Translations under genes and position numbers: made by a program
Notes under the pieces: model-generated
Database searches by the model: none
Told to the model about the DNA's origin: nothing
What the model saw: the letters and a program-made list of their open reading frames with translations, nothing else
Part shown: positions 30,508 to 48,718 of the stretch, in pieces
Numbering within the stretch: the stretch's first letter is position 1
How the letters are laid out: each line of letters opens with the position of its first letter
Origin: Schaalia cardiffensis
Lineage (GTDB): Bacteria > Actinomycetota > Actinomycetes > Actinomycetales > Actinomycetaceae
Assembly (NCBI RefSeq): GCF_016405145.1
Contig: NZ_JAEKIA010000015.1
Coordinates: forward strand, 1-49,149
Reading direction: 5' to 3'
Length of the DNA: 49,149 nt

Positions 30508-30561
30508 GAAGGCCTTCTTGTACGAACTGTGAGTGTGATTACCCACATCCTGCCAAAAAGG

Positions 30562-30963: not shown

Positions 30964-31248
30964 AACCCCACCAAAACACGACCAAAACCAGCCACAACGA
31001 ACCCCCTACACAAAGACCCCGTTGCAACCACCACAAAAACCTAGCCCTTAGAATCCAACCAACCTCCCACACACAACTATGGCGAGGTAGAGCATCGTAT
31101 TACTCCCCACTCTACGATCAACTACAATGGCGGTTACTTTTCGTTGCAAGTCGGCTACGATTCCCCGTGTGAGATTGTCGAGGGAAGAGGGATTTTAAGC
31201 TGTGTCGAGATACTGTAATGACATTCCCACTATGAGGTGGCACTTCCG

Positions 31249-32073: not shown

Positions 32074-32081
32074 GCAGCATT

Positions 32082-32995: not shown

Positions 32996-35754
32996 ATTTC
33001 GGGCTCGCTGAGGTTCTACTTGGAAAGCCTCCAAGATCGGACGAATCAGAGGAACGTGCTGCCGAGATCCTCGATTCTCTCAACCATGGATCCGTGTACG
33101 AAGCGTGCACGGCCCCCTCATTCCGTTCGACTGCATGGATGCGAGTACGTGTCCTCCCTTCGAGGGAGCCTGAGTCGCCCCTCCCATTTGAAACCCTTCT
33201 CAGAGCATTATCTGGTGGACTGAACACTGTTGAAATCCTCATATCGTCGACGAGAGGCGAACTTGAGTTCAGGATCGGCTCGAATGCTCAGACACTCGAA
33301 GAATGCAGGCGCCTCCTCGCACCAGGCTTGCTGATGGAAAAAGTACCGTCTGCCGGAACGCTCCCACGCGATGGATTCGGCGCTGTGTTCAGAGTCAAGG
33401 CAGAAATCTCCACCCGCGATCCCCGAGACAAAGGCCGCGTTTCTCTTCTTGATAAGCTCGCAGTTCTTGAGGATGGGTGGGCATTGCTTCTACGCTTCGA
33501 AGCAGTCCAACCCGAAGATATTTTACCAATCCGATTCCAATTGACAACACTTGAGGATGAAGCCGCTTCAAGCACACAGATTTCTTACGCTGTTACACAG
33601 ACTGTCAGTAAGGTCAAGATTTCCCACCGATGGTCAAAAGTCACCAAGTGGCTCGCGGTACTCGAAGGACTTCTCGACGAAGGAGAGGGAGAGGGGCTGT
33701 GGGCTGTCGAGACCTGGCTTCTCGCAAATGACCGAAAGCGAAGATCCGGCGCATTTACAGCGCTTTCCTCCTCGATCCGGTCACGCGAAGGGCGTTGGTA
33801 TTCAACGCGAGAGGTGGAGATCAATTCGGCTGGAGTCTCACCAACGTCTATTCTGCCAACGGCTGATCTAGCTTCGCTTCTTGAAACGCCTCTACGCTCA
33901 TTCAATGGCCTCGAGGTGCGTCCAGCCCCACCCGATTCGCGTCGTCCTGCCGTTGGCGGCGACGCGCTTGTTCTTGGCACTTTCCTGGGGACTTCTGCGA
34001 CAGCATCTATCCATATTAGCGATCTTGAAGGGCACGGGTTCATTACGGGAACAACAGGGTCGGGAAAGACGACGACTCTTCACACCATACTTGTATCGTT
34101 GTGGAACGAACATCGGATTCCTTTTTTGATAGTCGATCCGGTAAAGGACGACTACTCGAATATTTCCGACCTTTTCGATGGGGGAATTCAAGTCTTCCAC
34201 GGAGCAAACATTCGATTCGATCTTCTCAGCCCGTGGTTTGGCGAAGAGCGACGCAGGCACATCACGCAAATTGCTGATGCCTTTCGCGGTGCCTTCACAA
34301 TGCCTTCACCAACCCCCTACGTCGTTACAAGGCTTTTCGATCAACTATCGCTCATGCCTGGCGAGGGTCGTGGGGCCACTCTCTTCGATGCCAGGGACAT
34401 GGTGCCAAAACTTGTTGCCTCCCTCGGGTACGCTCCTGAGCAGGAAGCGAATATTTCCGCGGTTCTTATGACCCGTTTAGACCTTCTTCTTTCGCCGGTT
34501 CGGGCTCACCGCTTTGTTTGGCCCGATACTGCGCTGATCGCGGATCTATTTGATCGTCCCACAGTTGTGACGCTCTCGGATCTTGGTGACGAGGAAGAGC
34601 GCTCTTTCCTTGTTATCCTCCTTGCAATCGCCGCCGCTGAACGGGCACGATCACAGAGTGTCGGGAGGGATGGCCCGAAGCGCTCTGTCGATCACGTGCT
34701 TGTTCTTGAAGAAGCCCACCGTGTTCTGCCCGAGGTTGGCATGGGGCTTGCAGACCCGGAATCAGGATCCGCAAAGAGAGTTGCGACCGAACTTCTCTCT
34801 TCTATGCTCTCGGAGGTCCGAAGTTACGGAGAACAGATAATTGTCGTCGACCAGAGCCCGTCTCGTGTTTCTTCCGAGGTTATTCGGAACACTAACCTCA
34901 AAATCGTTCACAGGGTTGTCCACCCCGACGATCAAGAGATAATGGCGGGCGCTCTTGGACTCGATACAGCTAAAAGGAGTGTACTCGGATCTCTTGGACG
35001 TGGAACTGCTGTGCTCACAACGAGGATGGAGCCGAGTGCGCAAACTATCGCCGTACGACGAGCTTTCCCGACTCGAAAGAGAAGCACTGTTTTTCCTGCA
35101 GAGGTTGTCTCTCCTTGGCCGTGTTCCTGCAAATCCCGACAGCATTTCGACGCTTGGGGACGAGCCCATCGTGCAGCCAGTCCGATGGCAGAATTTCTTG
35201 CTTCCCTAATGTGGGGAGAGGGCGACGGTCGAGAGGCAAGGGCTCGTATTCGCTCCCGCCTCGTCGCTATCGCAGAGGGAAACCAACAGCTAGTCAACTG
35301 TCTCGCCTGGTCAGGGCTCCGTACCCTTCTTTCAGATCGAAGACGTCTCGGCCACGCTACTGGCCCGCACTCAGCGGACGCGATGCTTACCCAGCTCTTT
35401 GACGCGTGGGCTTCAGGTCGGCCACTCACAGCATTCGAATTCGAGGACGAAATCATCTTTCCAACCAGCCGTGTTCGTGCAGACGGGGCACGGGGATTGT
35501 CCTGGGAAGAACGGGCCATTGCACGTTCGCTTCTCTCCGAAGAACCCCGTGACGGATTTGCTGCGCTTCGGACCGACTGGCGTAGGGGCATCGGTGACGT
35601 TATCGGCCGCCTCAATGAAATACGCAGAGATTTCGACCCCGTTCTCGGAGAAGGAACTCCTCGGCTCCTGCGTGTGCTCGTATTCGTCGCAGTCGAGCAA
35701 ATGAAGCTATCAGACAGCGTCGCCCATGAGATTCTCGACCGTTCGGGGCTATGA
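32992..35754 (+). CDS. HerA-type hexameric ATPase/translocase
   Basis: The 920-residue product has an N-terminal region of about 300 residues, then a HerA/FtsK-like motor. Walker A is GTTGSGKTTTLH (near residue 348), followed by FLIVDPVKDDY, the arm ITQIADAFRGAF and Walker B HVLVLEEAHRVLPE. Then come YGEQIIVVDQSPSRVSSEVI and NLKIVHRVVHPDD (sensor/arginine-finger region). A C-terminal region of about 200 residues starts near CSCKSRQHFDAWGRAH and is unassigned. HerA motors work with nucleases or other effectors in defence and repair; no NurA or Sir2 partner is adjacent, only the papain-fold pair. The ATG overlaps the preceding stop (ATGA). Confidence 0.85.
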   Translation: MNFGLAEVLLGKPPRSDESEERAAEILDSLNHGSVYEACTAPSFRSTAWMRVRVLPSREPESPLPFETLLRALSGGLNTVEILISSTRGELEFRIGSNAQTLEECRRLLAPGLLMEKVPSAGTLPRDGFGAVFRVKAEISTRDPRDKGRVSLLDKLAVLEDGWALLLRFEAVQPEDILPIRFQLTTLEDEAASSTQISYAVTQTVSKVKISHRWSKVTKWLAVLEGLLDEGEGEGLWAVETWLLANDRKRRSGAFTALSSSIRSREGRWYSTREVEINSAGVSPTSILPTADLASLLETPLRSFNGLEVRPAPPDSRRPAVGGDALVLGTFLGTSATASIHISDLEGHGFITGTTGSGKTTTLHTILVSLWNEHRIPFLIVDPVKDDYSNISDLFDGGIQVFHGANIRFDLLSPWFGEERRRHITQIADAFRGAFTMPSPTPYVVTRLFDQLSLMPGEGRGATLFDARDMVPKLVASLGYAPEQEANISAVLMTRLDLLLSPVRAHRFVWPDTALIADLFDRPTVVTLSDLGDEEERSFLVILLAIAAAERARSQSVGRDGPKRSVDHVLVLEEAHRVLPEVGMGLADPESGSAKRVATELLSSMLSEVRSYGEQIIVVDQSPSRVSSEVIRNTNLKIVHRVVHPDDQEIMAGALGLDTAKRSVLGSLGRGTAVLTTRMEPSAQTIAVRRAFPTRKRSTVFPAEVVSPWPCSCKSRQHFDAWGRAHRAASPMAEFLASLMWGEGDGREARARIRSRLVAIAEGNQQLVNCLAWSGLRTLLSDRRRLGHATGPHSADAMLTQLFDAWASGRPLTAFEFEDEIIFPTSRVRADGARGLSWEERAIARSLLSEEPRDGFAALRTDWRRGIGDVIGRLNEIRRDFDPVLGEGTPRLLRVLVFVAVEQMKLSDSVAHEILDRSGL

Positions 35755-35780: not shown

Positions 35781-36410
35781 TCAGAACGAAATTCCGGAAA
35801 TCCTTCGCAGCCCAGTCGCTAGTTCACGGATTGATTGCTCGATCGCGTCGGATGAGGCATGACGGCGCTCCTCATAGTCGGCTAATTCACCTAAAGCATC
35901 TGCAGAATCCTCTCCGAGCCCACAGGTAATAATCCGGATGCCATCGGCACGGATTTGCGCGGCAATCTCGAGTGCACGCTCACGATCGCCAAGGTCCCCA
36001 TCCCCAAAGATTGCGATGACCCGGTCGCCGCTAGGGTCATCCTTCAGATCAGACCAAGCCACCTTCAGTGCCGGGACAACATTGGTGCCCCACCGCGCTT
36101 CCGCTGTTCTAAGAAGCTCTAAAGCCGCATGTGACTCACGCCGAAGCTCTACGTGCCCTGCTACGGCGCCATGCCATAGAACTAAACCGACCGAGTAGCC
36201 CCCATCTGCCGCTTCCGAAAGAAAATCTTCGGCTCCACGCTTTGCGGCGTTGAGAGGCTCCCCCTCCATCGAGTACGATACGTCAAGAGCGAGGACGACG
36301 GCGCCTCTGAAAAAAGAAGAAAGCGCTTCGAAGGCCGGACCGACAGGGTACTCCGTTGCCTCCATCGATTCAAACTGTCTCTTCATCCATTTTGCCATCG
36401 AATCCACCAC
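35781..36410 (-). CDS. von Willebrand factor A domain protein
   Basis: The 209-residue product is nearly all vWA domain. The metal site is visible: LDVSYSMEG (DxSxS near residue 42), TNVVPAL (Thr) and GDGDLGD (Asp). Soluble vWA proteins commonly pair with AAA ATPases or chaperones to bind targets. The start is GTG 36410, four bases after the Hsp70 stop; ATG 36398 is an alternative with GGTGG in front. Last gene of the minus-strand operon, convergent with herA (26-base gap). Confidence 0.85.
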   Translation of the reverse strand: MVDSMAKWMKRQFESMEATEYPVGPAFEALSSFFRGAVVLALDVSYSMEGEPLNAAKRGAEDFLSEAADGGYSVGLVLWHGAVAGHVELRRESHAALELLRTAEARWGTNVVPALKVAWSDLKDDPSGDRVIAIFGDGDLGDRERALEIAAQIRADGIRIITCGLGEDSADALGELADYEERRHASSDAIEQSIRELATGLRRISGISF

Positions 36411-36414
36411 ACCT

Positions 36415-37923
36415 TCAACCGATCAGCGCAAGACCGCCAACACTCGATTTCTGTTCCTCTATCTCCCTCTCGTCAACCACTCCGTTGACGAATGCTTCTA
36501 GCTTAAGCGGGGCCCCCGTATCGTGCATCTTTGCAGACATCTCGACACGACCGTTCGAGTCAAGTAAAATAAGAAGATCAACAGGGGTTCCCGCATCTAG
36601 CGGCGGGATTCCTGTAATCTGTGCGTCAAAAACGATCGAGTTGTTCTCCAGCCGTTGTGATGGAAATATACCGTTCTGTTCCATGATCCGCACACGGATG
36701 GCAGGCTGCCGGTCCTGAATCGTGGCAAGAACGATCGCCCTTTGTGCAGGGAGACGAGTTCCTCTAGGAAAAATTGGAAGAACAATAGGTATTGGGGAGA
36801 ACGGTGCAGCGGACGACATAATCCTTACTCCGAGCTGCCGAGAAAGCACGTTCCCGATTCTCACGGTGGAGTTATGCGAAATGATACGCTCTGCATAGAG
36901 AGCAGCTCCGCGTGCGACAGCACGATCGGGATCCACTGTTTCAACGGGAAGAGAAAACGTACGTTCGATCGCCCTCCGAAGCATCGGCATCCTCGTCGAA
37001 CCACCGACAAGAAAGACCTTCGTCGGTTTTGGCCCACCCCGCTTTTTAGATTCCTCGACGGTCCTTTCTGCGGCTTCGACGCAGATTCTGACGAGATCCG
37101 CCGATGCGCGCTCGAATTCTGCACGCGATATGCATACTGTGCGTCTAACGCCATTATATTTTAAAGAAACCGTCGCAGACTCATGTATCGACAAGCGCTT
37201 CTTTAGAATTTCAGATTTGAACGACACTTGGTCCACAAATTCCAAATCCGCTTCTGCATTCGAATCAATTCCGGCTTCGAACAGGCGCCGCCATACGAGC
37301 GTTTCAACACGCCGATCCCAGTCGAGTCCACCGAGACGACGTTCCCCGTCAACGGCCCAGACTTTCTGATTCTCTCCCCACCATTCAATAAGAGCTACGT
37401 CAAACGTCCCACCACCAACGTCAACCACGAGCGGAACTTCTCGAGAATCCTCCGAAAGCACCGCACAGGCAGCAGCAACAGGTTCGGCAAGCAATTCGAG
37501 ACACTCTATACCCGCTATCCTTGCAGCTGCCCGCGTCGCTTCTTGCTCCGCCAAACCAAAATAAGCTGGGATGGTGATGACCGCTTTTAGTTCTTCTGGG
37601 GCACAATCAAGGAATGATGCGCTATCGCTTGCGATGCGACGGAGAATAATCGCCGAAAGAGCTTCCGGCGTGAAGACAGCACCACCAACGGCGAACGATT
37701 CTTCCTTTCCCATATACCGCTTAATTCCGACGACGATTTCTTCATTCGTTCCGAGAAGCACCTTCGCGTCGTCACCAACTAAGACTCTACCATCACTTTC
37801 AAAGAGAATCACGGACGGCGTCAAATCACGTCCGGTTGAAGAAGGGATCACCCGCGTCTCACCATTTTGTGAGATCATCGCACAACTGTAGGTTGTTCCG
37901 AGGTCTATACCAATTACAGGCAT
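36415..37923 (-). CDS. Hsp70-family protein without lid domain (second copy)
   Basis: The 502-residue product has a full Hsp70 ATPase domain: IGIDLGTTYSCAM (phosphate 1), VITIPAYFGLAEQEATRAAA, LVVDVGGGTFDVALI (phosphate 2) and VFLVGGSTRMPMLRR (adenosine). A shortened substrate-binding beta region follows and the C-terminal helical lid is absent, unlike DnaK (about 600-640 residues). The ATG at 37923 has GGAGAGG upstream; earlier open codons overlap the neighbour and are rejected. Co-operonic GTPases and vWA suggest a dedicated, not general, chaperone. Confidence 0.88.
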   Translation of the reverse strand: MPVIGIDLGTTYSCAMISQNGETRVIPSSTGRDLTPSVILFESDGRVLVGDDAKVLLGTNEEIVVGIKRYMGKEESFAVGGAVFTPEALSAIILRRIASDSASFLDCAPEELKAVITIPAYFGLAEQEATRAAARIAGIECLELLAEPVAAACAVLSEDSREVPLVVDVGGGTFDVALIEWWGENQKVWAVDGERRLGGLDWDRRVETLVWRRLFEAGIDSNAEADLEFVDQVSFKSEILKKRLSIHESATVSLKYNGVRRTVCISRAEFERASADLVRICVEAAERTVEESKKRGGPKPTKVFLVGGSTRMPMLRRAIERTFSLPVETVDPDRAVARGAALYAERIISHNSTVRIGNVLSRQLGVRIMSSAAPFSPIPIVLPIFPRGTRLPAQRAIVLATIQDRQPAIRVRIMEQNGIFPSQRLENNSIVFDAQITGIPPLDAGTPVDLLILLDSNGRVEMSAKMHDTGAPLKLEAFVNGVVDEREIEEQKSSVGGLALIG

Positions 37924-37945
37924 GTCGACCAACCTCTCCTTTGTT

Positions 37946-38158
37946 TTAACCTTCCCAGGGGAAAGGGATCGCTGTCGAGAGTTCATAGCTTACCAATGAA
38001 ATTTCATTGTACACCGCATTGAAAAGCCGCAGCCCATTACCGTCAACAATGATCCACAAACCTAGAAAAAACGCGATAGCGCAGACAAAAATAATATGAA
38101 TAAATGACCAAAAAACTCGGTACAACGTGTAACTTCTAGGGACCTTAATGTCACGCAT
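37946..38158 (-). CDS. Small single-pass membrane peptide
   Basis: The 70-residue product has a basic start (MRDIKVPRSYTLYR), one long membrane helix (about 16-38, FIHIIFVCAIAFFLGLWIIV) and a short polar tail. AAAGGG lies seven bases before the ATG. It sits between the membrane GTPase and the second Hsp70, with gaps of 12 and 22 bases, so it is almost certainly part of the operon. A membrane adaptor or effector role is only a guess. Confidence 0.65.
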   Translation of the reverse strand: MRDIKVPRSYTLYRVFWSFIHIIFVCAIAFFLGLWIIVDGNGLRLFNAVYNEISLVSYELSTAIPFPWEG

Positions 38159-38170
38159 CAATTTTCCCTT

Positions 38171-39883
38171 TCATCGCGAATTAGAAACAGGGGTAGCTGG
38201 CAATTTGTTCGAAAACTCCACGGCTGGAAGAAGAGATACGGGAGATCCCTCGGCCGAGAAGAGCCAATCAAGTACAGCGATTGGTGAGGTGCGTGACCAC
38301 TCATCCTGAACATTCAGCGAATCGACCGCAAAATAAACGACTTCTTTAAAGTCCGACTCGAATGTCCGAACAAGCCCCTCAATCCCCGTTTCTACGAGCC
38401 ATGAACGCACCGATTGCGAGGAACTCGGATCGATGCTCACACCCGCACCAGTGCGGCGAAGAAGATCGAGCTTGGAGAGCACGACGCCGAGACGTCGGCG
38501 CTTAAGACTGATACCAGCATCACGTAATCGCTGTGCCACCGACTGGTAGGCGTCCTCTTGGTCGGAACTTGCGATCTCGTCCTGAATTCCTCCGGATACG
38601 TAGAGATCGTCGAAGACTCGAGGCAGCGCGAGAGGATCAAGGACGAAGATCATCGTCTTAGCTACGTCGAAATACGAGAGCGCTGAGCCAGAATCGCTTG
38701 TTACAAAACGCTCTCCGGCAACGTCCACAAAGTGAACCTCGAGCTGTTTACCACGCGCGTCCAAGAAAATGAGCGGCGTTCCGTTCGGTTTTTCCTGGCT
38801 CGGTGTCTTTGCCGTTGTCGTCCTCGAAAAAATTACGGAACGTGCTGTCTGGAGAACGCTATTAGCTTCGGGCGTTAAGGCTTCGACACTTCCCTTTTCC
38901 TTCACAAGTGCCCGCTCTGCTTCAACCAGAGCTGCTGAAACTAATCTAGTCTTACCGGCAGAAATCGCTCCGAAAACGGGGATTCGGAGCGTCATGCGCG
39001 TTCCGGCGCCACTCGGTAAAGTTGCGCGACATGAGGGGCAAACCGATTCAAGTACATTGGAAGCGTGAGTAACTGTTGTTGGTAATACAGCTCCACAGCC
39101 GCAGAGACGCTTCACAATTCCAAGTGCCCCTGGAGAAATGTCCGCGTGAATCTCTTGGCATGAAGAGCACTTGTATACCGGATTTGAATACTCCGCATAG
39201 CAAAAAGGGCAGGCGGAGCTCGCGTGTACAAGCCGCCGTTTAATCTTTTCGAAAAGGGAGTAGGCAGACGTGACCACAAACTGAAGAAACCAGATTCCTC
39301 CCCCGAGTATGAGCATCACGACTGTCCAAACGCCAACAGACATGACCAGTCCCGCACTAAAGGCAATGACGAGCGGAAGGAGAACAAGTATCCAGAAGAG
39401 CATGTTGCGGAGCCCGATGATAATTAAGTGAGTTTTGCCGATCTCCTCGGGCCCATGGTCGCGGACAGCGGCAGACCATGCGGCGAATGCGATCATCTGA
39501 CGTTTTGTCTCACCATGGATGGCCCTCATGTCCCTGCGCCCCTGGTACGGAATATACAGGGGCCAAGCTCGATCCCATCCGAAGTGCCGCGCAAGACCCC
39601 TTGGGGCACGCTGGTGGAATACCTCTCCGGCAACAACGAGATCAGGAGAAGCAATCTCAGGCTGCACAGAAGAATGTCCCCAGAGAACGCGTATGGGAAC
39701 TGCACATCCGCTAATCACTCCAACGGAAAATGCAATAAAGAATCCAATCGCAAACAAGACGACAACGACCGCGAGCACCTTTAAGATTACAACGAGCAGT
39801 ATCCAAAGAAGATAGAATACTGCTGCAACAATGAGCACGAACGCTATGATCGCAACAAGTAAAATAGCAAGTCCATCATCCAT
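38171..39883 (-). CDS. Membrane-anchored zinc-ribbon GTPase (TRAFAC, double-GTPase-like)
   Basis: The 570-residue product starts with two or three membrane helices (about 5-65), a soluble stretch, two more helices (about 160-215), and then several CxxC ribbons (CPFCYAEY, CSSCQEI, CGCG, CPSCRATL; about 228-290). The GTPase domain follows: FGAISAGKTRLV (G1), FVDVAGERF (G3) and VLSKLDLLRR (G4, SKLD replacing NKxD). The architecture matches the GTPases associated with GAP1-type proteins. It starts at ATG 39883, overlapping the end of the upstream gene, with GGAG in front. Confidence 0.78.
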   Translation of the reverse strand: MDDGLAILLVAIIAFVLIVAAVFYLLWILLVVILKVLAVVVVLFAIGFFIAFSVGVISGCAVPIRVLWGHSSVQPEIASPDLVVAGEVFHQRAPRGLARHFGWDRAWPLYIPYQGRRDMRAIHGETKRQMIAFAAWSAAVRDHGPEEIGKTHLIIIGLRNMLFWILVLLPLVIAFSAGLVMSVGVWTVVMLILGGGIWFLQFVVTSAYSLFEKIKRRLVHASSACPFCYAEYSNPVYKCSSCQEIHADISPGALGIVKRLCGCGAVLPTTVTHASNVLESVCPSCRATLPSGAGTRMTLRIPVFGAISAGKTRLVSAALVEAERALVKEKGSVEALTPEANSVLQTARSVIFSRTTTAKTPSQEKPNGTPLIFLDARGKQLEVHFVDVAGERFVTSDSGSALSYFDVAKTMIFVLDPLALPRVFDDLYVSGGIQDEIASSDQEDAYQSVAQRLRDAGISLKRRRLGVVLSKLDLLRRTGAGVSIDPSSSQSVRSWLVETGIEGLVRTFESDFKEVVYFAVDSLNVQDEWSRTSPIAVLDWLFSAEGSPVSLLPAVEFSNKLPATPVSNSR

Positions 39884-41280
39884 TATTCTGTCTCCTTTTT
39901 GAAAACTCTCTTAAACACGCGAATCGTTTTTCTAGAAAGCCTTCCTCTCTTCGTTTGCTCCGCAAAATTGGCAAGCAATTTCTGACTGCGAAGGCCAAGG
40001 AATTGCGTCGATTCGGCGGAAAGTAGACGCACCCGAAGTTCATTGTCATCACAAACCCAGGTGAGAAAATCCTCAGCCACTGCAGATTGGACGGATTTTG
40101 AATCTATCTCGAGCCATTCGAAGAAAATGTGAAGCAGCGGAGAAATACGTCTGGGATCAGACTTTCGCGATTCGAAGTCCCGACGCAGGCAAGCCTTCCA
40201 GAGAGTAAAATTTTTACCGACAAGAGTCGCAAAAGCACCTTGATTCCGCATATCGCAGAACGGGCTGACCATCTCATGGGGGATCGCCCAACCACAGGAG
40301 TCCAGCAAATTTGCGAGTCGGATTACGTCAATCTGAGCGCAGCTCTTGTTTCCAGATTCAAGCTCACTCAAAACAGACAGGGCTTCAACAGTTGCTAGCG
40401 CAAGATCAAGAAGGGAACCGAAACTCACGACATTGCTTGAAGTAGCGATCGCCGTGAGAAGAGGGGAAAATCTAGGAACTGGGCGGAGATTCCGTGCTGC
40501 TGTTTCGTATGATGCGAAGATACGGTGGCAGAGTCTATCTTCAAGAAAACCAACGCTCTCAAACCAGGCTTCAACAACCGCGATGTCTTCAGGTAACCGG
40601 CAATCAGCGAGGTAGTAGACCCAAGATCCAGGAGCCGGTCGGGGACGTTGGGATAAACGGTTGATTCTCTCCTCGATCCTGGCATCAGCGAGCGTAGCAG
40701 CCTCCCGCCACAGGTCAGCCAGGTGACGGAGTGGATCCGCAGCGTCCAGCTCATTAATGAGTGATGACCATTTTCCGCCCTCAAGCTCTTCGAGCGCAGA
40801 TCTGTCGCCCGATTCCCACGCAGAAATAAGGTCTGTCAGCACCACGCGCAAGAGTCCTTGATGAAACCTGTCCGGGGCGCTGAGAATTGAGAGATCACCG
40901 CTGCGGATATCCTTAGCAATAGTCTCCTGAGCTAATCTCAACGCGTCAGACTCAAGGTCAAGGTCCAGCAATGTCGCACATAAGTAGAGTGCATAAACGA
41001 ATCGTGTTTCGCAAGAAAATAGACGGCTCGACACTAAGTTTGAGGCGAGCTGTTGTGCCTCCGCATTGTTCCACGAGAAGATCATTATGCCGAAATGTTT
41101 GGCAAGTTGCCCCTCCCACACCGCGAATTCAGAATCCGAGGTTAGTGCAGCCTCCAGGCAATGAAGTACAAGGCTTTCGGCAAGTTCAACATGTCCGTTG
41201 AGAGAGAGGGCTGCGACCGCTGTGGCGGAGGCCCTGACCTCTGCATCATCTGTCGGCATTCGAGCAACGAGAAGATCCAT
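39883..41280 (-). CDS. GAP1-type protein, C-terminal part (separated by an in-frame stop)
   Basis: This 465-codon frame is in the same reading frame as the upstream 41410-42294 gene. The intervening codons also read as protein (AAEVVDALVSDCSTDSEVWG and on), so a single TGA (41410-41412) divides one 803-residue gene. The product is all-helical, repeat-like, with a basic end (RLSRKTIRVFKRVFKKETE), fitting the C-terminal domain of GAP1 proteins. The first ATG after the stop (41280) has no clear ribosome site, so independent translation is doubtful. Confidence 0.65.
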   Translation of the reverse strand: MDLLVARMPTDDAEVRASATAVAALSLNGHVELAESLVLHCLEAALTSDSEFAVWEGQLAKHFGIMIFSWNNAEAQQLASNLVSSRLFSCETRFVYALYLCATLLDLDLESDALRLAQETIAKDIRSGDLSILSAPDRFHQGLLRVVLTDLISAWESGDRSALEELEGGKWSSLINELDAADPLRHLADLWREAATLADARIEERINRLSQRPRPAPGSWVYYLADCRLPEDIAVVEAWFESVGFLEDRLCHRIFASYETAARNLRPVPRFSPLLTAIATSSNVVSFGSLLDLALATVEALSVLSELESGNKSCAQIDVIRLANLLDSCGWAIPHEMVSPFCDMRNQGAFATLVGKNFTLWKACLRRDFESRKSDPRRISPLLHIFFEWLEIDSKSVQSAVAEDFLTWVCDDNELRVRLLSAESTQFLGLRSQKLLANFAEQTKRGRLSRKTIRVFKRVFKKETE

Positions 41281-41409
41281 CAGGGAGTCACCATGATCGA
41301 AAATCTCATCCTCATCAGCAGCCAGAACTGAAAGAAGGTTCGCTACGCTGCCCCAGACCTCACTGTCGGTCGAGCAGTCAGAGACAAGAGCATCAACGAC
41401 CTCCGCTGC

Positions 41410-42294
41410 TCAATCTGGAGTAATGTACAAAGACCAGCGCCTTACGAGCTCAAGGGACTCGATTGCTTCGAATGGTGTGAACTCACGCAGCCGACGCGCG
41501 ATACGGGTCGCTGCGACTGTCGGTAGCAAGTCGGGAAGGATCCATTGGTCGAGGTTGATCACGTTGATTCCAAGATCCTGCTCATGCGGGTCTGGCGCAA
41601 GCCCAAATTTAGGGTGCACAGCAACAACTTGCCCACGGCACTTGAAAGGCTCTGCTACGAAACCCTCAAAACGGATGTCGCGGCACTGAGCGGGTTCGAG
41701 CAGGATGGAAACTACTGCGAACCATTGCATTGCGGTCACAGCATTCTCTGTAACGAATGCAAGCCGCTTCCCCTCAGAAGACAGCTGCTCAACCGCTGTG
41801 AGGAAAATCGGAAGCCCAAGGTCACCCCACGGTGCCTGCACTAACATCTCAACAAGGGCGTCAGTTTCAAAGGCTTCATCGAGGAGTAGCGGTGCAGCCC
41901 ATTGCAAGCAGGTGGTCGATGTCGGGACTGTAAGGTCCCACTCAGTTGCACCGAAAAGCTGAGCCGGTCTCAGCGGCTCAAAATCGAGCGTCGATGAGGT
42001 TAGCGCGCATTGTGTAAGAAAGTTGCCGCTTCTGCCGCCAATTGTTAATCCTGTTGGGATCCCACGGGCAATGAACATAATCCCATCGTGAGAATCAACA
42101 ATGAAACTCTCAGGATGCTCGAGTGGATCATGTTCAAGATCCCACCCTGTTCGAAGCTCAATTAGCATCCGACTCCGAATAAAAGCCATTTCAGCTTGTG
42201 AGATGCCTTCGGAAACTGCCGCGAAACCGAAACCCGAGGCACCTTCGACATTTGTCTCCCTCGTGGTATCGGTATAAACGACAACGTCAAACAT
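41410..42294 (-). CDS. GTPase-associated protein 1, N-terminal and middle domains, ended early by TGA
   Basis: The 294-residue product opens MFDVVVYTDTTRE, continues GASGFGFAAVSEGISQAEM and has LDFEPLRPAQLFGATEWDL and LVEMLVQAPWGDLGLPI, which matches the GAP1-N2 and GAP1-M domain pattern. GAP1 proteins accompany TRAFAC double-GTPases in conflict systems. The stop falls in LYITPD-stop-AAEVV, where the frame then continues without interruption to 39883; TGG (Trp) to TGA is the simplest explanation. The ATG overlaps the GTPase-gene tail, and a G8 tract lies in its ribosome-binding region. Confidence 0.75.
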   Translation of the reverse strand: MFDVVVYTDTTRETNVEGASGFGFAAVSEGISQAEMAFIRSRMLIELRTGWDLEHDPLEHPESFIVDSHDGIMFIARGIPTGLTIGGRSGNFLTQCALTSSTLDFEPLRPAQLFGATEWDLTVPTSTTCLQWAAPLLLDEAFETDALVEMLVQAPWGDLGLPIFLTAVEQLSSEGKRLAFVTENAVTAMQWFAVVSILLEPAQCRDIRFEGFVAEPFKCRGQVVAVHPKFGLAPDPHEQDLGINVINLDQWILPDLLPTVAATRIARRLREFTPFEAIESLELVRRWSLYITPD

Positions 42295-42485
42295 TCCTCA
42301 GCCCCCCCCTTTTCAGCACACCACGTTCAGCGAGGAGCCACAGTAGTGGCTCTCCTATCCGGTGGGGCGCAATTCCGTGAGAATCGACCTCGGTGGTCAC
42401 GTAATCAGGTTCTGCTCCTAGCGACGAGATAGCGAAGAGGCGGTAGTTTTTACAGTTGAGATCAAGAAGATCGATGAGCCCAGAA
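42287..42485 (-). pseudogene. Out-of-frame C-terminal tail of the DO-GTPase2-like gene
   Basis: Beyond the G8 tract the next frame reads SGLIDLLDLNCKNYRLFAIS, SLGAEPDYVTTEVDSHG and AERGVLKRGGLRNV, then stops. This is the expected helical end of the GTPase. Removing one G joins it in frame to the upstream gene, giving a 404-residue protein that overlaps the GAP1 start by eight bases. Confidence 0.75.
42302..42309. repeat. G8 homopolymer (C8 on plus) at the GAP1 ribosome-binding region
   Basis: On the minus strand the context is AAAAGGGGGGGGCTGAGGA followed by ATG. The tract lies seven bases upstream of the ATG and can pair with anti-Shine-Dalgarno sequence. It also lies inside the end of the GTPase frame, so length changes would alter both. 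Confidence 0.7.
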
Positions 42486-43502
42486 CCCCCCCCATTCGTG
42501 AACGAGGGAAGCAACGTGATCGTGGACGTTTTTTGACTCAGCGTCGTCGAAGTATGGGACATTCGGGCTAGCTGCACAGAGTGGATTGGATTGCGAAAGA
42601 GAAGGAAGAAAGGCATCGATCTTCGAAATTACGACCGCGATAGGCTGGACGATCTTCTTGCCCCGTTTGGTTCCCTCATTCGCCCTGAGAACATCGATGA
42701 CAGCACCGACGACGCTTTCAGGAGCATCGGTTCCCATTCCGCTTGGAGCTACGTCGCCTCGACGACCACGGTTTGCAGGGAAAGAAAATGGATCGAGCAG
42801 AAGTATGAGCCCCTTTGTGGCGCGGAGATAACCGATCGACATCGCTCGGTCCACACCATGAGACAAATCTTCACCTGCAGTGTCATAGAAGGAGAAGATC
42901 GTACAGTTGAAATCCTTCCAAGCCCTGCGTGTGGGGACCTTCCACTCAAAAACCACAGGTGAGCGCTTCTTGTCACGCATTACGTCTGTCTGATCGGGAA
43001 GAGTCCCATGCTCGCGCTCCATTTTCGCGAGGTTATTATCAAGTTCCCGCGAGGACTCTGAATCATTACGACAGTAGAAAACGTGACGATCGAAACGACG
43101 TGGGATCGAACCGTGTACCTGATTAAGCTCTCTCTTTAGCACAGAGAGCATAACTGTCTTACCTGCGGACCGTGCACCGACGAGGCCGAATATGGAGCTT
43201 TCTGAGCTGAATTCACCCGGAAGGGAAGAATGGCAATGCGGACAGAGACGAATCCGAGTCTTACCTCGACATTGTGGGCATTTTGCGCTCCGCGGTTCGG
43301 CAGAGAATCCCCGCTCTTCAGGTTCGAACGAGGGAAGAAGGGGTCTAGTATCTGAGAATATCTGTTTCAGCCTTGCATCTTCAACTTTCGGGCAAGGTGT
43401 ACAGCCAGCATCGGGGGTGCCGGCACAACGGAAGTGTACCTCTTTCAAGTTAATAGGGGTGTAGCAATAAGGACAGGGAACACTCTTGTTGATAATGGAC
43501 AC
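42462..43502 (-). CDS. Zinc-ribbon TRAFAC GTPase (DO-GTPase2-like), frameshifted at a G8 tract
   Basis: As read, the product has 346 residues. An N-terminal zinc region (CPYCYTPI, CAGTPDAGCTPC, CPQCRGKTRIRLCPHCHSSL) precedes a GTPase domain: LVGARSAGKTVML (G1), FYDTAGEDLSH (G3) and VVISKIDAFLP (G4, SKID). It ends HEWGGFWAHRSS after reading through GGGGGGGG (42486-42493). With seven Gs the frame continues to 42287. The GTG at 43502 is chosen because AAAGG precedes it, it follows the upstream stop by five bases, and the ribbon starts directly after; the open frame runs further upstream inside the neighbour. Confidence 0.78.
   Translation of the reverse strand: MSIINKSVPCPYCYTPINLKEVHFRCAGTPDAGCTPCPKVEDARLKQIFSDTRPLLPSFEPEERGFSAEPRSAKCPQCRGKTRIRLCPHCHSSLPGEFSSESSIFGLVGARSAGKTVMLSVLKRELNQVHGSIPRRFDRHVFYCRNDSESSRELDNNLAKMEREHGTLPDQTDVMRDKKRSPVVFEWKVPTRRAWKDFNCTIFSFYDTAGEDLSHGVDRAMSIGYLRATKGLILLLDPFSFPANRGRRGDVAPSGMGTDAPESVVGAVIDVLRANEGTKRGKKIVQPIAVVISKIDAFLPSLSQSNPLCAASPNVPYFDDAESKNVHDHVASLVHEWGGFWAHRSS
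42486..42493. repeat. G8 homopolymer (C8 on plus) causing frameshift in the GTPase gene
   Basis: Minus-strand context GAATGGGGGGGGTTCTGG. Eight Gs give a stop at 42462; seven (or ten) restore the full-length GTPase. Tracts of this length are prone to slipped-strand change and to sequencing error. Confidence 0.8.
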
Positions 43503-43507
43503 TGGAC

Positions 43508-46201
43508 TCAGCCTTTGAGATTCTGGGTGGGGGGATCGATAAGTTCGACATCGCCTAGAGAAAATAGACGAATCCAATAGGGACAGTTTGTTCGATTGAA
43601 ATGAACCGATGTCGTAAACGGCTTCCCCACTGATAGATTTGCGGCAAATCTTGAGACAACCTGTCCGTCCTCCGGAGAGTTCGGCATATATCTCCCCTGA
43701 GACAGAACTAGAACGCACTCGAGGGAGCCTTCGTAGTTTTCTGTCGACAACTCGATATCAGCTTTCGGTGAGCCGAACAGTGGCCGGGAAATACGCAACT
43801 TATAGGCTGCGCGGCGAGTCACCCGCGTCGGAATATACTCCAAAGGAGCTGAATCGATATCTCCGTTTTCATCTTTGAGAACTGCCCGAACGCGAACAAG
43901 CGAAACGGAGTCGGCGTCGGGAATGATTACGCCACCAGCCTGCTTATACGCAGTTCGACCGATATGCCGTGATCCGGAATGCTCGCCTTCCCATTCGACA
44001 AACGCTTCATATCGACCATACGGCCAGAGCCACGAAACCAAGAGGTTCGATCCCCGACGCTCCGCGATGAGCTCCCGCATCGGAGGTACAGAACCCCAGA
44101 GTATAGAACGACCAATAAGAGCGCTATCCGAATCCCACGTGACGGGCAGTAGAACGCGTATCTCGTCCAAAACTGGAAGCCGTACTTCCTCCTTATCCTT
44201 CTGTCGCGAGATTGTCTGACCCGCGCGAGACGCCCCAATATCCTCGAGATCCTCCACAGTACGCACTTCGCCATAGCGAGGATGTGGCACACCGACAGGA
44301 AGTGACCAGAGTTCTGTCGTGTACCCTGGGACGGCACTCCACGAAACCGTTCGAGCATCTGAGCTGATCTGTAAGTCTCCGACAGCGTGGATTTTGCCAC
44401 GCGAGATCACTTCGATACTAACTGGCGCCGCGGTTTCAATCCGCCCCTGAACCGAGTAAAGGGCGACAATCTCAAAACGCAGCCTACTGCCGATAGTCAG
44501 TCCTTCAACCGAAGCTTCTTCAACAGTCGAATCAGGGAGAGTCGAGTGACCGTCGTCGGAAAAAATCGTTACCCGCGCACCTGTGGAGGCAGACGGGCAC
44601 TTCCAACGAACGCCGACGGAGGTTGCTTCTGCCCATGAAGTCGGGGAGCTGATCGGAGGAAAGACAGGAACAGTGCAGTCGACCGGAGAAGATTGGATGC
44701 CGTTCTCATTCCGACCCGTCACGAAATAGGTTGTACGAGCCCCAATGACGGGTCGGTTATCGCACGCTGAAGCTACCCCCGAAACATCCGAAATCGGGAG
44801 ATCTAGAATTTCCTCAGAGCCGCCAGCAAAACCGGCTGCTCGCCTGCGAATTGTGTAGACAAGTCCGGGCACAGTTTTCCATCGAAGGCGAACTGAACCT
44901 ATCTTCGGATCGAAGACAGCTTGTACGTCGGCGGGAGCGAGAGGGGGAATCTGCCGGGCTAGATCTTCGATAACGGGATCTGTACGGTCAACCCTGGCTA
45001 GATCAGTAAGAAGCGCATGACACTCATCTATATCTCTTTTAACGAGAGCTAGGCGTAAATCGTCCAGAGCACGCGCCTTCACTTGCTCGCGTTCTTCGAC
45101 CGATTCTTTGGCGTGAAGGTAATCTAAATCCGTCCGAGCGGCGCCTGCAGGCGCAAAAGCGTCGAGGACACGACGCGCCGAAATAAGGTCACCTGCAGCA
45201 AGTAGCGGCGCAATGTCTGCGATGCTCATACCTTGCGCCCCAGAACGGATGGCCGCGTGGCTCGCAATCCTGCAAGCATCAACCTCGTCAAGTCCTCTTT
45301 CGACAAGTTGATCCCTCGTCTGATTCGCAAGCAGGCCATCCCGATTAAGCAGCTGCTCAGCTAGGTCAACAAACCATCTGAAGCAAAGATCGTGGTAGTG
45401 CACATCTGACTCGTCGGACCCCATCGCTTGGAGGGCCTTTCTTACGCTTTCGACGGTGTCCCCCCCGCTTGCGTCAGCATGTGCTTTTGACTTCCGAGCA
45501 TCATCTGCGCAGATCGGACGTCTCTTGCTACCGTTTTCGACCGAAAATTCGTCAATAATCCTAATGCCCGACGCGGGATGCCTTTCGTAGAAAAGTAGGA
45601 CGTCGACCGGAGATCGGAGAGCAGCATCGAGGTCCTTCGTTAGTGCAGGAGAATCCGCTCGAACCGATGGAAGTTCAAGCGCGGGAAATGCTCTGATTCC
45701 CTCATTTTCAAGGGCTGCAATGAAGTCATTCGCCTCAAGAGAGTTCCTTGTCGCTAGATCCACTGCCTCTTCCAAGGTGAGAACCTTGAGAGGATGAACC
45801 TCGGCGGTCTTCTTTGCAAGATCAACGAGCACTCGTTCTTGTAATTCGGCAGCTGCCTCTCTTAATGTGTGCCAAAAGTGGAGTTTTTCCACATCTTCGG
45901 AAAAGCGGTTCCGAATCGCATTAAGGAGGCGCTGTAGCGGAGCAGAACCTTGTAATCTCGCAAACGCGTTGAGATATCGCGACACCGCATCAAGCTGAGC
46001 GGCCACCTCAATGTCGTTGAGTGAATCATCAATCGCAAAGAGCGTCGAGACATCCGCGAGTGCAAGTGCATCCATTGCTTTATCGCGATCAAAGTTGGGC
46101 GCATTGACAGCGTTTGCCGCGGAATTGACTAGCGCAATACGCTTCTTCGACTTGGCTAGAGGTTGGAGAATCGTTGTTTTGTACTCCGCCTTTTCGATCA
46201 T
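43508..46201 (-). CDS. Large helical plus FN3-like beta-domain protein
   Basis: The 897-residue product has an all-helical N-terminal half (about 1-420) without a recognisable J-domain HPD. From about 425 it becomes a series of beta-sandwich modules resembling fibronectin type III (PADVQAVFDPKIGSVRLRWK, TSWAEATSVGVRWKCPS, SSDARTVSWSAVPGY, RGSNLLVSWLWPYG). There is no signal peptide, so these modules are probably intracellular, as in other Hsp70/GTPase loci. The ATG at 46201 has GAGGAG ten bases upstream. It lies 56 bases after the Hsp70 gene. It may be the scaffold or client-binding subunit; I cannot name a family. Confidence 0.7.
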   Translation of the reverse strand: MIEKAEYKTTILQPLAKSKKRIALVNSAANAVNAPNFDRDKAMDALALADVSTLFAIDDSLNDIEVAAQLDAVSRYLNAFARLQGSAPLQRLLNAIRNRFSEDVEKLHFWHTLREAAAELQERVLVDLAKKTAEVHPLKVLTLEEAVDLATRNSLEANDFIAALENEGIRAFPALELPSVRADSPALTKDLDAALRSPVDVLLFYERHPASGIRIIDEFSVENGSKRRPICADDARKSKAHADASGGDTVESVRKALQAMGSDESDVHYHDLCFRWFVDLAEQLLNRDGLLANQTRDQLVERGLDEVDACRIASHAAIRSGAQGMSIADIAPLLAAGDLISARRVLDAFAPAGAARTDLDYLHAKESVEEREQVKARALDDLRLALVKRDIDECHALLTDLARVDRTDPVIEDLARQIPPLAPADVQAVFDPKIGSVRLRWKTVPGLVYTIRRRAAGFAGGSEEILDLPISDVSGVASACDNRPVIGARTTYFVTGRNENGIQSSPVDCTVPVFPPISSPTSWAEATSVGVRWKCPSASTGARVTIFSDDGHSTLPDSTVEEASVEGLTIGSRLRFEIVALYSVQGRIETAAPVSIEVISRGKIHAVGDLQISSDARTVSWSAVPGYTTELWSLPVGVPHPRYGEVRTVEDLEDIGASRAGQTISRQKDKEEVRLPVLDEIRVLLPVTWDSDSALIGRSILWGSVPPMRELIAERRGSNLLVSWLWPYGRYEAFVEWEGEHSGSRHIGRTAYKQAGGVIIPDADSVSLVRVRAVLKDENGDIDSAPLEYIPTRVTRRAAYKLRISRPLFGSPKADIELSTENYEGSLECVLVLSQGRYMPNSPEDGQVVSRFAANLSVGKPFTTSVHFNRTNCPYWIRLFSLGDVELIDPPTQNLKG

Positions 46202-46257
46202 CGCACGACTAACTCCTCTATCTTTTACGACCGCCCCGAAGGGCTTCTAAGGCAGTA

Positions 46258-47859
46258 TCATGACTGTGTCGTAATTGCTGCAATCTGCACTCGGCTTGCC
46301 TCAACTTCTTCCTCGGTCAAAACAGAAACAGATGCCGTCGCGCGTACTTCCTTGCCGGTTGTCGGCTCCTTGCCAGTGAGCAGAATAGTCCCGTCCGAGT
46401 CGATTTCGATATTGATATCGACGGGCGATCCCTTCGGAAGCGGCGGAAGCCCAGAAATACAGGTATTCGGACCGGACACAAGTTCTCTGTTAGCCGCCGT
46501 ATCGTTACACTCCACTTCACCGAGTTGTTCGTAGAGTTCGATCTGGATCCGCGTCTGGTTGTCCTGAAGAGTTCCCGCACGGAGAGTAGCTGTCATCGGG
46601 ATAGAGTCATTCGCGTGAGCAAGAAAGGCAATCGAGTCAATGTAGGCCCCACTCGGGTCAACGTCAGTAACCTTGACACCGACACCGCGAGCAAGAACAT
46701 TAGACACAGCGACAGCCGTTCCAGGACCGACCAGGAGGGAAGAGTTTGCAGGCGGTGTCTTTTCATCGTAGTCTCCGCCCCCAATCTCGAGATTTGTGGT
46801 GCCAAGCGCAAAAATCGCAGCCCCCTTCGCAACCGCAAGATCGTACTCAGTCGCCTCAGGAGTGAAACCCTCCGCTCGCAGCCGATTCTCGATCATCGGC
46901 ATACGACACGAACCACCAACGAGAAGGAAATGGTCGATTTCAAGACCCGGTGTTTTTGCTTTTGCGGTCTCGATGCAGCGTTTTGCTATTTCAAGGGTCT
47001 GCTCGACAAGATCGTGCGTTGCCTCTTCGAATTCCTCGACGCCAACTTCAATCTTCTGTGAGATATCCTCGAATTTCATGCGGATCGCTGCTGAGGGGCG
47101 ACGAGAGAGTGTCTTCTTCGCCTCCTCTACACTGGCACGCAGCTCAACCATAAAATCTTCGTCAGCCTCTGGGTCTCGATCGAGTCCCAGCCCTGCGGAT
47201 TCTCGGAATCGTTCGAGGAATAACTGTTCCAAACGTCGATCCCAATCCGCCCCGCCCAGGAGGCGATTGCCATCAATAGCTATTACATCAACACGTCCCT
47301 GGGAGGCGCGCATAACAGTAGTATCAAAGGTACCGCCGCCGAGATCAAAAACCATGAAGGTTCCAGAAAGACCTCGTTCTGAGCTAACCGAAATCGAAGC
47401 TGCAACAGGTTCCGGGATGATCGAAACTACTTTGAGCCCTGCGATAACTCCTGCCTGGCGAGTTGCCTGTCGCTCCTGAACTCCGAAGTATGCAGGGACT
47501 GTGATTACAACGTCTTCGATCGCTGTACCTCGCTGATTGTTCGCGTTCGCGACCAGCTCTTTTAAGATGAGAGCGGAGATCGATTCGGGAGTGAATGTCT
47601 GCCCGCGATAATCTAGTGGAAAAGATTCTCCCATATGGCGCTTCACCAATGAGCTCGTGTTGTCAGGGTCGGAGATCTGCTCTCGTTTTGCCTGAGCACC
47701 GATGACGGCCGAACCGTCGTCCTCGAAATGAACGACCGAGGGTGTTGTATTCTCGCCCTCAAAGTTGGCTATCACCTCGGCTCCCCTTACGGGGTCGGCG
47801 ATAGCGATTGCGGAGTAAGTCGTGCCGAGGTCAATGCCGAAAGGCTGCGGAGTCATCAT
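46258..47859 (-). CDS. Hsp70-family protein without lid domain (first copy)
   Basis: The 533-residue product has the Hsp70 ATPase domain: FGIDLGTTYSAIAI (phosphate 1), VVITVPAYFGVQERQATRQA, MVFDLGGGTFDTTV (phosphate 2), LLVGGSCRMPMIENR (adenosine). A beta-type substrate-binding region occupies about 395-520 (NVLARGVGVKV, LPPLPKGSPVDINIEID) and no helical lid follows. It is clearly distinct from the second Hsp70, not a recent duplicate. ATG 47859 has AAAGG upstream. It follows the GrpE-like gene, its likely exchange factor. Confidence 0.9.
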   Translation of the reverse strand: MMTPQPFGIDLGTTYSAIAIADPVRGAEVIANFEGENTTPSVVHFEDDGSAVIGAQAKREQISDPDNTSSLVKRHMGESFPLDYRGQTFTPESISALILKELVANANNQRGTAIEDVVITVPAYFGVQERQATRQAGVIAGLKVVSIIPEPVAASISVSSERGLSGTFMVFDLGGGTFDTTVMRASQGRVDVIAIDGNRLLGGADWDRRLEQLFLERFRESAGLGLDRDPEADEDFMVELRASVEEAKKTLSRRPSAAIRMKFEDISQKIEVGVEEFEEATHDLVEQTLEIAKRCIETAKAKTPGLEIDHFLLVGGSCRMPMIENRLRAEGFTPEATEYDLAVAKGAAIFALGTTNLEIGGGDYDEKTPPANSSLLVGPGTAVAVSNVLARGVGVKVTDVDPSGAYIDSIAFLAHANDSIPMTATLRAGTLQDNQTRIQIELYEQLGEVECNDTAANRELVSGPNTCISGLPPLPKGSPVDINIEIDSDGTILLTGKEPTTGKEVRATASVSVLTEEEVEASRVQIAAITTQS

Positions 47860-47899
47860 TTTACCTTTCACCTTAATGGAAATCTTCTGAAAAGGTACA

Positions 47900-48718
47900 C
47901 TACTGAGTGTACCGGCTAACAGAGACGTCTGCGGGCACAAGGGCGCGGTCTTCTCCGAGCATGACGAGTCCCTGCTTGTAGACACGTACGATGAGGCCGT
48001 CGAATTCAGGGTTCTGAGTCTCTACGCTTCGTCGGGCATAGTGGAGATTCCTATCGAAAGGCTCCCCTATGCGCGCCTCGACGCTGCGCACGCCGTAAAG
48101 TTCAAGCATTTCGAGGAGCAACTCCTCAACATCCGAGAGTACTTCGTTGGCCGAGCGCTCGTCAACGACCGAATCGGATCCCGTCTCCTGGATCCTCGTG
48201 ATGATACGGGAAGCAGCGCGGAAAAAAGGGCCAAGAAGACGCCTTAACTGGTCAGAGCGCAGCTCAGAATTCTCAGCACGCAACTCCGAGATGATCAAAG
48301 CGTTCCTTTGATCGCTCCGTTCAATCCTCGACAGACTACATTCGAGGCGCTCAAATGCGGAGCGAAAATCAAAATCAGACGAGGATTGCTCGTCCCCGAT
48401 AACGGAAGTCTTAGCATCTGACAGAAGGTTTATCGGGAATCTGCTGGGACCTCCACAGCAGACATCCATCTCCGGAGAGCAGACAGTAACGCTTTTCTCT
48501 GCAGTAGGCATTTGTGCCTCATCAAGAGTCGAGCTATTCGATTCGGAAAGTTCACTCGTAGCAATATCACGGTCCCCCATCGATTGGGGACCAAATTCCT
48601 TCGCTGTTTCACTCATGTCAATATCCGACTCTACGGATCTACCTTCATCCGACGCGCTTTCGAAAGCATCCAACGGGGGTTGCGCATCGGGAGCCTTCGA
48701 AGGATCGATTCTGTTCAT
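47900..48718 (-). CDS. GrpE-like nucleotide exchange factor
   Basis: The 272-residue product has an acidic, disordered N-terminal third, a helical coiled coil (about 112-160) and a C-terminal head (about 185-268). There LLEMLELYGVRSVEARIGEP, FDRNLHYARRS and YKQGLVMLGEDRALVPADVS follow the GrpE pattern (VxxIxxxGxxFDPxxHxA ... GYxLxxRxLRPAxVxV). GrpE releases ADP from Hsp70. It is longer than usual GrpE (about 180-200) because of the N-terminal tail. First gene of the minus-strand operon. Confidence 0.75.
   Translation of the reverse strand: MNRIDPSKAPDAQPPLDAFESASDEGRSVESDIDMSETAKEFGPQSMGDRDIATSELSESNSSTLDEAQMPTAEKSVTVCSPEMDVCCGGPSRFPINLLSDAKTSVIGDEQSSSDFDFRSAFERLECSLSRIERSDQRNALIISELRAENSELRSDQLRRLLGPFFRAASRIITRIQETGSDSVVDERSANEVLSDVEELLLEMLELYGVRSVEARIGEPFDRNLHYARRSVETQNPEFDGLIVRVYKQGLVMLGEDRALVPADVSVSRYTQ

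Follow-up and report, generated by a model that had tools for sequence, protein, structure and literature searches.

A Predicted Conflict Operon of Hsp70 Chaperones and Paired GTPases in Schaalia cardiffensis, With a Linked HerA/Toxin Cassette

Results

The 49,149-nucleotide stretch of contig NZ_JAEKIA010000015.1 from Schaalia cardiffensis (hereafter the window) carries at 35781-48718 on the minus strand a bacterial conflict operon with Hsp70 chaperones and paired GTPases, a kind of system that earlier genome analysis had predicted. The gene set belongs to a described kind, the HSP70/GrpE theme of the GAP1-N2 systems. What is new beyond the 2020 description of that theme is a linked cassette of four plus-strand genes (31237-35754) with a papain-fold toxin and a HerA-like ATPase, a 28-residue tag on the vWA protein, and the broken state of a GTPase gene and the GAP1 gene in the window. 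A first-pass annotation had missed all three. The four cassette genes appear to belong to the core system, and we give about an even chance to the reading that the locus is a conflict system with an enzymatic toxin as its output, in which the toxin would be released inside the cell under GTPase/Hsp70 control.

The HerA/Toxin Cassette

The cassette is convergent with the core, and 26 bases separate its end from that of the vWA gene. Its first gene (31237-32073) encodes a 278-residue membrane protein with a cysteine-rich start and hydrophobic stretches at about 125-169 and 253-278. It had no Pfam family above cut-off, and homologues were found in the homologous loci L074 (1.5e-18) and L073 (8e-14) and in the genome G747 (5e-32). 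The second gene (32082-32753) encodes a Tox-PL1/Gln_amidase papain-fold toxin of 223 residues (PF15644, 2.2e-14). The Tox-PL1 motif is given as NC, H, and D in the account of this family by Zhang et al. (2012; PMC3482391), and these catalytic residues are present in the window protein (Asn94-Cys95, His169, and Asp184) and common to L073 and L074. No hydrophobic span was seen in the toxin by hydropathy, and no second Pfam domain was matched at 0.01. Between the toxin and the ATPase lies a gene for a small protein of about 82 residues (32750-32995), a candidate immunity partner that is found at the matching position in L073, L074, G747, and G907. The last gene (32992-35754) encodes a 920-residue HerA/FtsK-like ATPase without a hydrophobic span (DUF87, 9.2e-10; PADLOC mad8, 5.1e-20, and HerA, 8.5e-12). 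Its nearest solved relatives are HerA-type ATPases, and its homologues in L073, L074, and G747 are 39-46% identical. The order membrane protein, Tox-PL1, small protein, HerA is identical in the window, L073, L074, and G747.

When named genomes were scanned with the soluble GTPase, 10 loci were obtained, from three Frankia, Pseudarthrobacter siccitolerans, four Nocardiopsis, Cryobacterium aureum, and the actinomycete metagenome-assembled genome AUS1. The seven-gene core, from GrpE to the membrane peptide, stands in the same order in all 10 and in G747, and the gene set is therefore not due to chance; the check that the genes should recur together in other genomes, proposed with the first-pass annotation, thus came out in its favor. 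The core is followed in AUS1 and Cryobacterium by the four-gene cassette and then by Hsp70b and a tagged vWA gene. In these two loci (L073 and L074) and in G747 the cassette lies in line between the core and Hsp70b, and G747 has an unbroken line of the core with its membrane peptide, the membrane protein, Tox-PL1 (50% identical), the small protein, HerA, Hsp70b, a tagged partner, and a tagged vWA protein. A 5-kb contig of G907 has the small protein, HerA, and Hsp70b adjoining. Frankia QA3 and AgB1.9 have the core followed by Hsp70b and one tagged protein, and in Frankia HOG45C a partial Hsp70b lies at the contig end. In P. siccitolerans we found Hsp70b, a tagged vWA protein, a VTT-domain membrane protein, and a second tagged protein; the VTT-domain gene stands between the two tagged genes (L066, 17597-18325).

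G245 has another arrangement. A distance of 5.3 kb separates the end of its HerA gene from the Hsp70 gene of an HSP70-type core. A TNT-domain gene (1.5e-14), genes for proteins of 333 and 100 residues, a vWA gene, and a related membrane protein gene lie in this interval, and the genes for FnIII, GTPases, GAP1, and GrpE are found beyond the Hsp70 gene. No Tox-PL1 match below 0.05 and no small-protein match below 0.1 was obtained in G245, which has TNT instead; the small neighbor goes with Tox-PL1. The toxin-type genes of G245 lie at L098, 11999-14677, with the TNT-domain protein first and the 333- and 100-residue genes after it. The latter two have no Pfam family and look, by eye alone, like a second toxin and its partner.

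To place the cassette in the history of the group, a concatenated tree of 14 loci was used, from which N. salina was left out and which was rooted on G245 as a single distant outgroup. AUS1 with Cryobacterium and the window with G747 diverge before the Frankia/Nocardiopsis/Pseudarthrobacter group. This early branching of the cassette-bearing loci suggests that the cassette was ancestral to the group with the seven-gene core and was later lost in the Frankia/Nocardiopsis/Pseudarthrobacter group.

The distribution of HerA was surveyed with a profile in 396 genomes of the order, and also in 296 genomes of the class. Four genomes of the order matched at 1e-60, namely that of the window, G747, G907, and G902, and around the HerA gene of G902 (4.2e-74) no such core was found within 20 kb. 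In the class sample 19 genomes matched at 1e-40, and those below 1e-100 were the window and G245 only. Outside the window, all five close HerA homologues (E < 1e-100; G245, G747, G907, G705, and G706) lie beside genes of the system; G245, G747, and G907 were found without using the core, while G705 and G706 were reached through it and are not independent. Seventeen class-sample genomes had weaker HerA matches (1e-40 to 1e-64). GAP1-N2 was also present in five of these, never close to the HerA match, the two being on other contigs or 728 kb apart. A weaker HerA-like ATPase was seen in G310 (L048, 213-3431; 30% identity to that of Cryobacterium, 4.5e-31), about 4 kb from a GAP1-N2 gene (7265-10234) to which the GTPase seems to be fused. 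No Hsp70 was seen there, and HerA and GAP1 may thus be linked more widely.

Several points weigh against tying the cassette to the core. The best two or three candidates were scored in most genomes of the HerA surveys. No close HerA was found in the eight other core genomes (three Frankia, Pseudarthrobacter, and four Nocardiopsis), which gave one weak match (1.2e-29). Among the eight annotated HSP70-type loci of the class sample, seven are without cassette-type genes and G245 alone has them. Two of these seven, G176 and G276, fall on the tree between G245 and the remaining loci, and because of this the claim of common descent of the G245 cassette with the other cassettes was dropped. Within about 5.7 kb downstream of the four Nocardiopsis cores, no Hsp70b, tagged gene, Tox-PL1, or HerA was matched. 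The small protein has no Pfam family, immunity families included, and in the window the cassette stands on the strand opposite the core. The opposite strands and the eight core genomes without the cassette (the HOG45C contig ends early) would fit two separate defence units, HerA-toxin and DO-GTPase/Hsp70, that favor a common island but are not functionally coupled. We consider this unlikely: the reading is weakened by the location of the cassette inside the operon, between the core and Hsp70b, in the three loci G747, L073, and L074, and the five close HerA homologues beside system genes also speak against it. Other genes are present in the Nocardiopsis downstream stretch, one of them kinase-like by eye.

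Proteins of the Core Operon

Transcription runs on the minus strand from 48718 to 35781 in the order GrpE, Hsp70a, 897-residue protein, soluble GTPase, GAP1, membrane GTPase, 71-residue peptide, Hsp70b, and vWA. These nine gene families had been named by the first-pass annotation, and they were confirmed by the open reading frames, the Pfam matches, and the gene order of the relatives. Single-sequence Pfam support was obtained for GrpE, both Hsp70s, the membrane DO-GTPase2 (above cut-off), the soluble DO-GTPase2 (below it), GAP1-N2, GAP1-M, and vWA.

The GrpE-like nucleotide exchange factor is encoded at 47900-48718 (PF01025, 3e-10), and Hsp70a at 46258-47985 (PF00012, 2.7e-88), with its true start probably near 47859. 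Hsp70b (36415-37986; PF00012, 1.4e-71; true start probably near 37923) consists of the ATPase domain and the beta substrate-binding domain. The alignment of each Hsp70 to DnaK extends across the beta substrate-binding domain and stops soon after it, so both are lid-less, as had been proposed. The alignment of Hsp70b with the DnaK structure 2v7y covers residues 4-481, with the beta part kept and the alpha-helical lid alone missing.

The 897-residue protein (43508-46201) is TPR-like/FnIII and a candidate sensor or scaffold. Its suspected FN3-like character was seen weakly with the single sequence (fn3, 0.0066) and was upheld by a 15-sequence profile, which matched fibronectin FnIII domains (4.4e-11) within about 420-630. 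The same profile weakly matched the TPR region of DNAJC3 (0.0015) at 333-412. No Pfam DnaJ match was found in this protein or the operon, and an HPD-like motif occurs in 1 of the 15 aligned rows, at residue 170.

The soluble zinc-ribbon DO-GTPase (42287-43502) matched DO-GTPase2 at 1.4e-4, with 22 bits against a cut-off of 27. The GAP1 gene (39883-42294) matched GAP1-N2 (2.5e-18) and GAP1-M (3.6e-12), both in the piece at 41410-42294, and the remainder down to 39883 has the position of GAP1-C. No Pfam match was found for the C part in the window, and likewise none in the intact homologue L046. The membrane DO-GTPase2 (38171-39883; PF19993, 2.1e-10, above cut-off) has zinc-ribbon cysteines and hydrophobic stretches at residues 1-68 and 151-207 by hydropathy. 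The two zinc-ribbon GTPases and the GAP1 protein of the earlier annotation thus match the expected families rather than unrelated ones, although the soluble GTPase and GAP1 genes turned out to be broken. The predicted membrane peptide is present as a single-span protein of 71 residues (37946-38161), recognized by conservation, alignment, and hydropathy and kept in all 10 loci and G747. The operon ends with the vWA gene (35781-36410, with the tagged protein at 35781-36398; VWA_2, 1.1e-10). PADLOC gave weak matches only on the operon genes, the best being that of Hsp70b to the candidate PDC-M61B (6.5e-6), and a known defence family was therefore rejected for the operon. Plasmid carriage was also rejected, since the membrane GTPase had no match in the plasmid collection.

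The vWA Tag

The N-terminus of the vWA protein is a 28-residue tag (36315-36398) with the consensus W-R-R-R-x-F-x-S-x-G-x-T-E-Y-P-x-G-P-x-L-x-R-L. The same tag starts an unrelated protein in Frankia QA3, Frankia AgB1.9, Pseudarthrobacter, and G747. In all 12 cross-family pairs the tag score was unmatched by any of 2000 shuffles. For the one tagged pair whose bodies were compared, that of G747, the body score was 72, and 200 shuffles gave a mean of 48 and reached 79 at most. Eight whole genomes were searched with a profile built from seven tags; in two of them 150 of 242 and 150 of 296 candidates were scored. Nine matches fell below 1e-6, all in these loci, and the next had an E-value of 0.1. 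Seven of the nine are members of the profile; the other two, in AUS1 (2e-8) and Cryobacterium (6e-7), are the vWA genes directly after Hsp70b. G245, which is without Hsp70b, gave no tag match below 1. In the eight genomes every locus found to bear the tag also has Hsp70b. The tag thus travels with Hsp70b, and our guess is that it binds Hsp70b. The tagged partner protein (233-275 residues) has no Pfam family, and its fold model is middling (pLDDT 73). At a guess, it may be ThuA/GATase-like.

Two Broken Core Genes

The first frame of the soluble GTPase starts at about 43502 and is closed by a stop codon at 42462, and the conserved C-terminal part lies in another frame that ends at 42287. The two pieces are 45 and 56% identical to an intact homologue. 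A run of eight G (42486-42493) lies at or close to the change of frame. In the GAP1 gene a TGA stands in frame at 41410-41412, and the same frame is open afterwards to 39883; this TGA looks like a point change. The comparison covered 11 homologous loci, that is, the 10 from the soluble-GTPase scan and G747. The soluble GTPase is a single frame in all 11 and GAP1 in 10, the exception being Nocardiopsis salina. In the draft contig of that species (L071, 7317-13509) the FnIII and GAP1 genes are frame-shifted, by decay or possibly by assembly error.

Because both genes are broken in the assembly and whole in relatives, the window copy as assembled is probably inactive, barring sequencing errors. 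Such an error at the G run is a possible cause of the GTPase break. A programmed frameshift or read-through was rejected as the simplest reading, given the single frames of the relatives. Runs of eight G on the coding strand occur only twice in the 49-kb window, at 42302-42309 and 42486-42493, each time inside the soluble GTPase gene. This is about the number expected from a Markov model (mean 1.36), and phase variation at these runs is not claimed.

Acquisition and Genomic Context

GAP1-N2 occurs in 1 of the 35 genomes of the genus, the window's own, and in 32 of the 296 in the class sample. Of the 35 genus genomes, 34 have the flanking gene at 25155-28244. The G+C content in 500-base steps is 49-58% over 30.5-49.0 kb compared with 59-67% at 26-28.5 kb. 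Between the chromosomal flank and the cassette lies a degraded insertion element (29684-30609), perhaps IS481-like, with imperfect inverted arms of 53 nt at 29684-29736 and 30557-30609 (74%). It contains an integrase-core fragment on the minus strand (29776-29994; PF13683 rve_3, 9.7e-7) and a second piece (29991-30404) with no Pfam match at 0.1. The sole occurrence of GAP1-N2 in the genus, the nearly universal flanking gene, and the broken integrase-type element fit acquisition by the lineage of the window, and the locus was probably acquired.

Discussion

The first-pass annotation had linked the operon to the study of Kaur et al. (2020; PMC7159879), and the same DO-GTPase/GAP1-N2 families were indeed matched. 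The annotation knew of no characterisation of the full set, but the set is already described. In the parts of that paper on theme two of the GAP1-N2 systems, HSP70 and GrpE occur together with DO-GTPases and, in a subset, a second HSP70, in about 14% of GAP1-N2 neighborhoods. The window shares with this theme the zinc-ribbon DO-GTPases, GAP1-N2/M, the FnIII protein, HSP70, GrpE, and a second HSP70, and it shares with GAP1-N2 systems the N-terminal hydrophobic stretches, fitting four helices, of one DO-GTPase. There are also differences. The second HSP70 of theme two is presented in that text as being without a peptide-binding domain, whereas Hsp70b keeps its beta substrate-binding domain. The theme-two FnIII protein is described there as fused to DnaJ or TPR; the window protein has the weak TPR match, and no J domain was found in it. 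Unlike the published systems, the window has a frame-broken soluble GTPase and a GAP1 whose N2/M part is split from the C part by TGA, and it adds the membrane protein, Tox-PL1, small protein, and HerA cassette, the tagged vWA protein, and the peptide of about 70 residues. The main text of Kaur et al. (2020) does not contain "deamidase", has "HerA" only in a reference title, and uses "papain" in a sole passage on another system. In the searches made of the open-licence PMC literature, neither experimental work on HSP70-type DO-GTPase systems nor a link of HerA or a toxin to them was found.

The nearest published parallel in layout is provided by the Type III-A CoCoNuTs (PMC11090510). In the sections of that paper on this type, they are GTPase-centered, with Hsp70-like NBD/SBD and TerY-type vWA proteins, and their extensions add FtsK/HerA ATPases with possible effectors. 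They differ from the window in a core of McrB/McrC with coiled coils and in ATPases that are EssC-, SpoVK-, or EccE3/VirB4-like, and GAP1, DO-GTPase, and GrpE are not mentioned for them in those sections. The defining core of a CoCoNuT is an McrB-type GTPase with McrC/CnuC, and no McrB/McrC family was among the Pfam matches of the window operon genes.

The shared module recalls the small effector-associated domains (EADs) that, in the account of Kaur et al. (2020; PMC7159879), join different domains to one system, but the 28-residue tag is limited to loci with Hsp70b in the eight genomes searched. The toxin gene resembles the Tox-PL1 polymorphic toxins, as far as these are described by Zhang et al. 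(2012; PMC3482391), in its papain fold with NC, H, and D and its small neighboring gene. It differs in being short and without a recognized trafficking region, and in having a chaperone/GTPase core and no known secretion system as neighbors. The ATPase resembles HerA-type proteins of anti-phage systems (PADLOC HerA and mad8; solved chains such as 8xau, 9c1m, and 8wiv), and, as in HerA anti-phage systems, it stands near a candidate effector. Unlike those proteins, it has 920 residues with large extra N- and C-terminal regions, and it is paired with a papain-fold toxin.

The core resembles a nucleotide switch that is tethered to the membrane and served by a chaperone cycle of its own. As a working model of intracellular toxin release by intact copies, the FnIII/TPR protein would sense an intruder or damage, and GAP1 would couple it to the soluble and membrane DO-GTPases, with the peptide of about 70 residues as the membrane anchor of the complex. 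Hsp70a, together with the private GrpE, may hold this complex off, or rebuild it upon a signal. The GTPase switch would then have two targets, the HerA-like ATPase ring and Hsp70b, the presumed handler of tagged vWA-type adaptors. Tox-PL1, freed in this way from its small partner, would attack a cell protein and cause growth stop or cell death. The earlier suggestion of a nucleotide-gated assembly of a membrane-linked effector may hold; as the effector we regard the linked Tox-PL1 as more probable than the vWA protein. With a papain-fold toxin that has its catalytic residues, the cassette would supply the enzymatic effector that is missing from the 2020 text for the HSP70/GrpE theme.

A different role of the toxin is delivery rather than suicide, in which an export device made up of the membrane GTPase, the membrane peptides, and HerA would hand Tox-PL1 over to neighboring cells, with the small protein shielding kin. 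The toxin with its small partner has the layout of polymorphic toxins, for which FtsK/HerA ATPases are described as driving export by the type VII secretion system (T7SS) in the relevant part of PMC3482391. The corresponding sections of PMC11090510 also consider secretion as a role of the FtsK/HerA ATPases that neighbor Type III-A CoCoNuTs with Hsp70 and vWA, and the locus has several membrane components. We hold export to be improbable nonetheless, as it is weakened by the lack of any recognized channel or trafficking-type second Pfam domain on the toxin. HerA, moreover, has no hydrophobic span, and the text of Kaur et al. (2020; PMC7159879) argues that most of their systems have no secretion features.

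That text also suggests that assemblies of the HSP70/tubulin themes are themselves effectors in multimeric form. Applied to the window, the Hsp70/GTPase assembly would be the effector and the toxin an accessory, and the Nocardiopsis loci, with the core alone over the roughly 5.7 kb covered downstream, would agree with this. The presence of an enzyme-type toxin with catalytic residues in the operon of several lineages speaks against it, and of the alternatives weighed here we regard it as the most doubtful.

Toxin release under GTPase/Hsp70 control can be taken one step further, to a tentative proposal that goes clearly beyond the broader reading in what it assumes. The locus may encode a chaperone machine dedicated to one toxin, in which the GTPase pair would switch two lid-less Hsp70s and their private GrpE, so that these hold and release the papain-fold toxin together with a HerA ring, and in which the 28-residue tag marks the clients of Hsp70b. 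HerA and the toxin would then be the original effector arm of the group with the seven-gene core, lost in the Frankia/Nocardiopsis branch, and toxins would be exchangeable between lineages if G245, with its TNT gene, shares the cassette by descent.

HSP70-type DO-GTPase systems have so far been predicted from genomes. If the cassette is their effector arm, it would provide an enzyme to assay, a partner protein to pair with it, and a short tag to try on a lid-less Hsp70, and the role of the private chaperones would become a question for the bench. If this is true, chaperone-gated toxin release would join the controls that bacteria hold over self-harming effectors.

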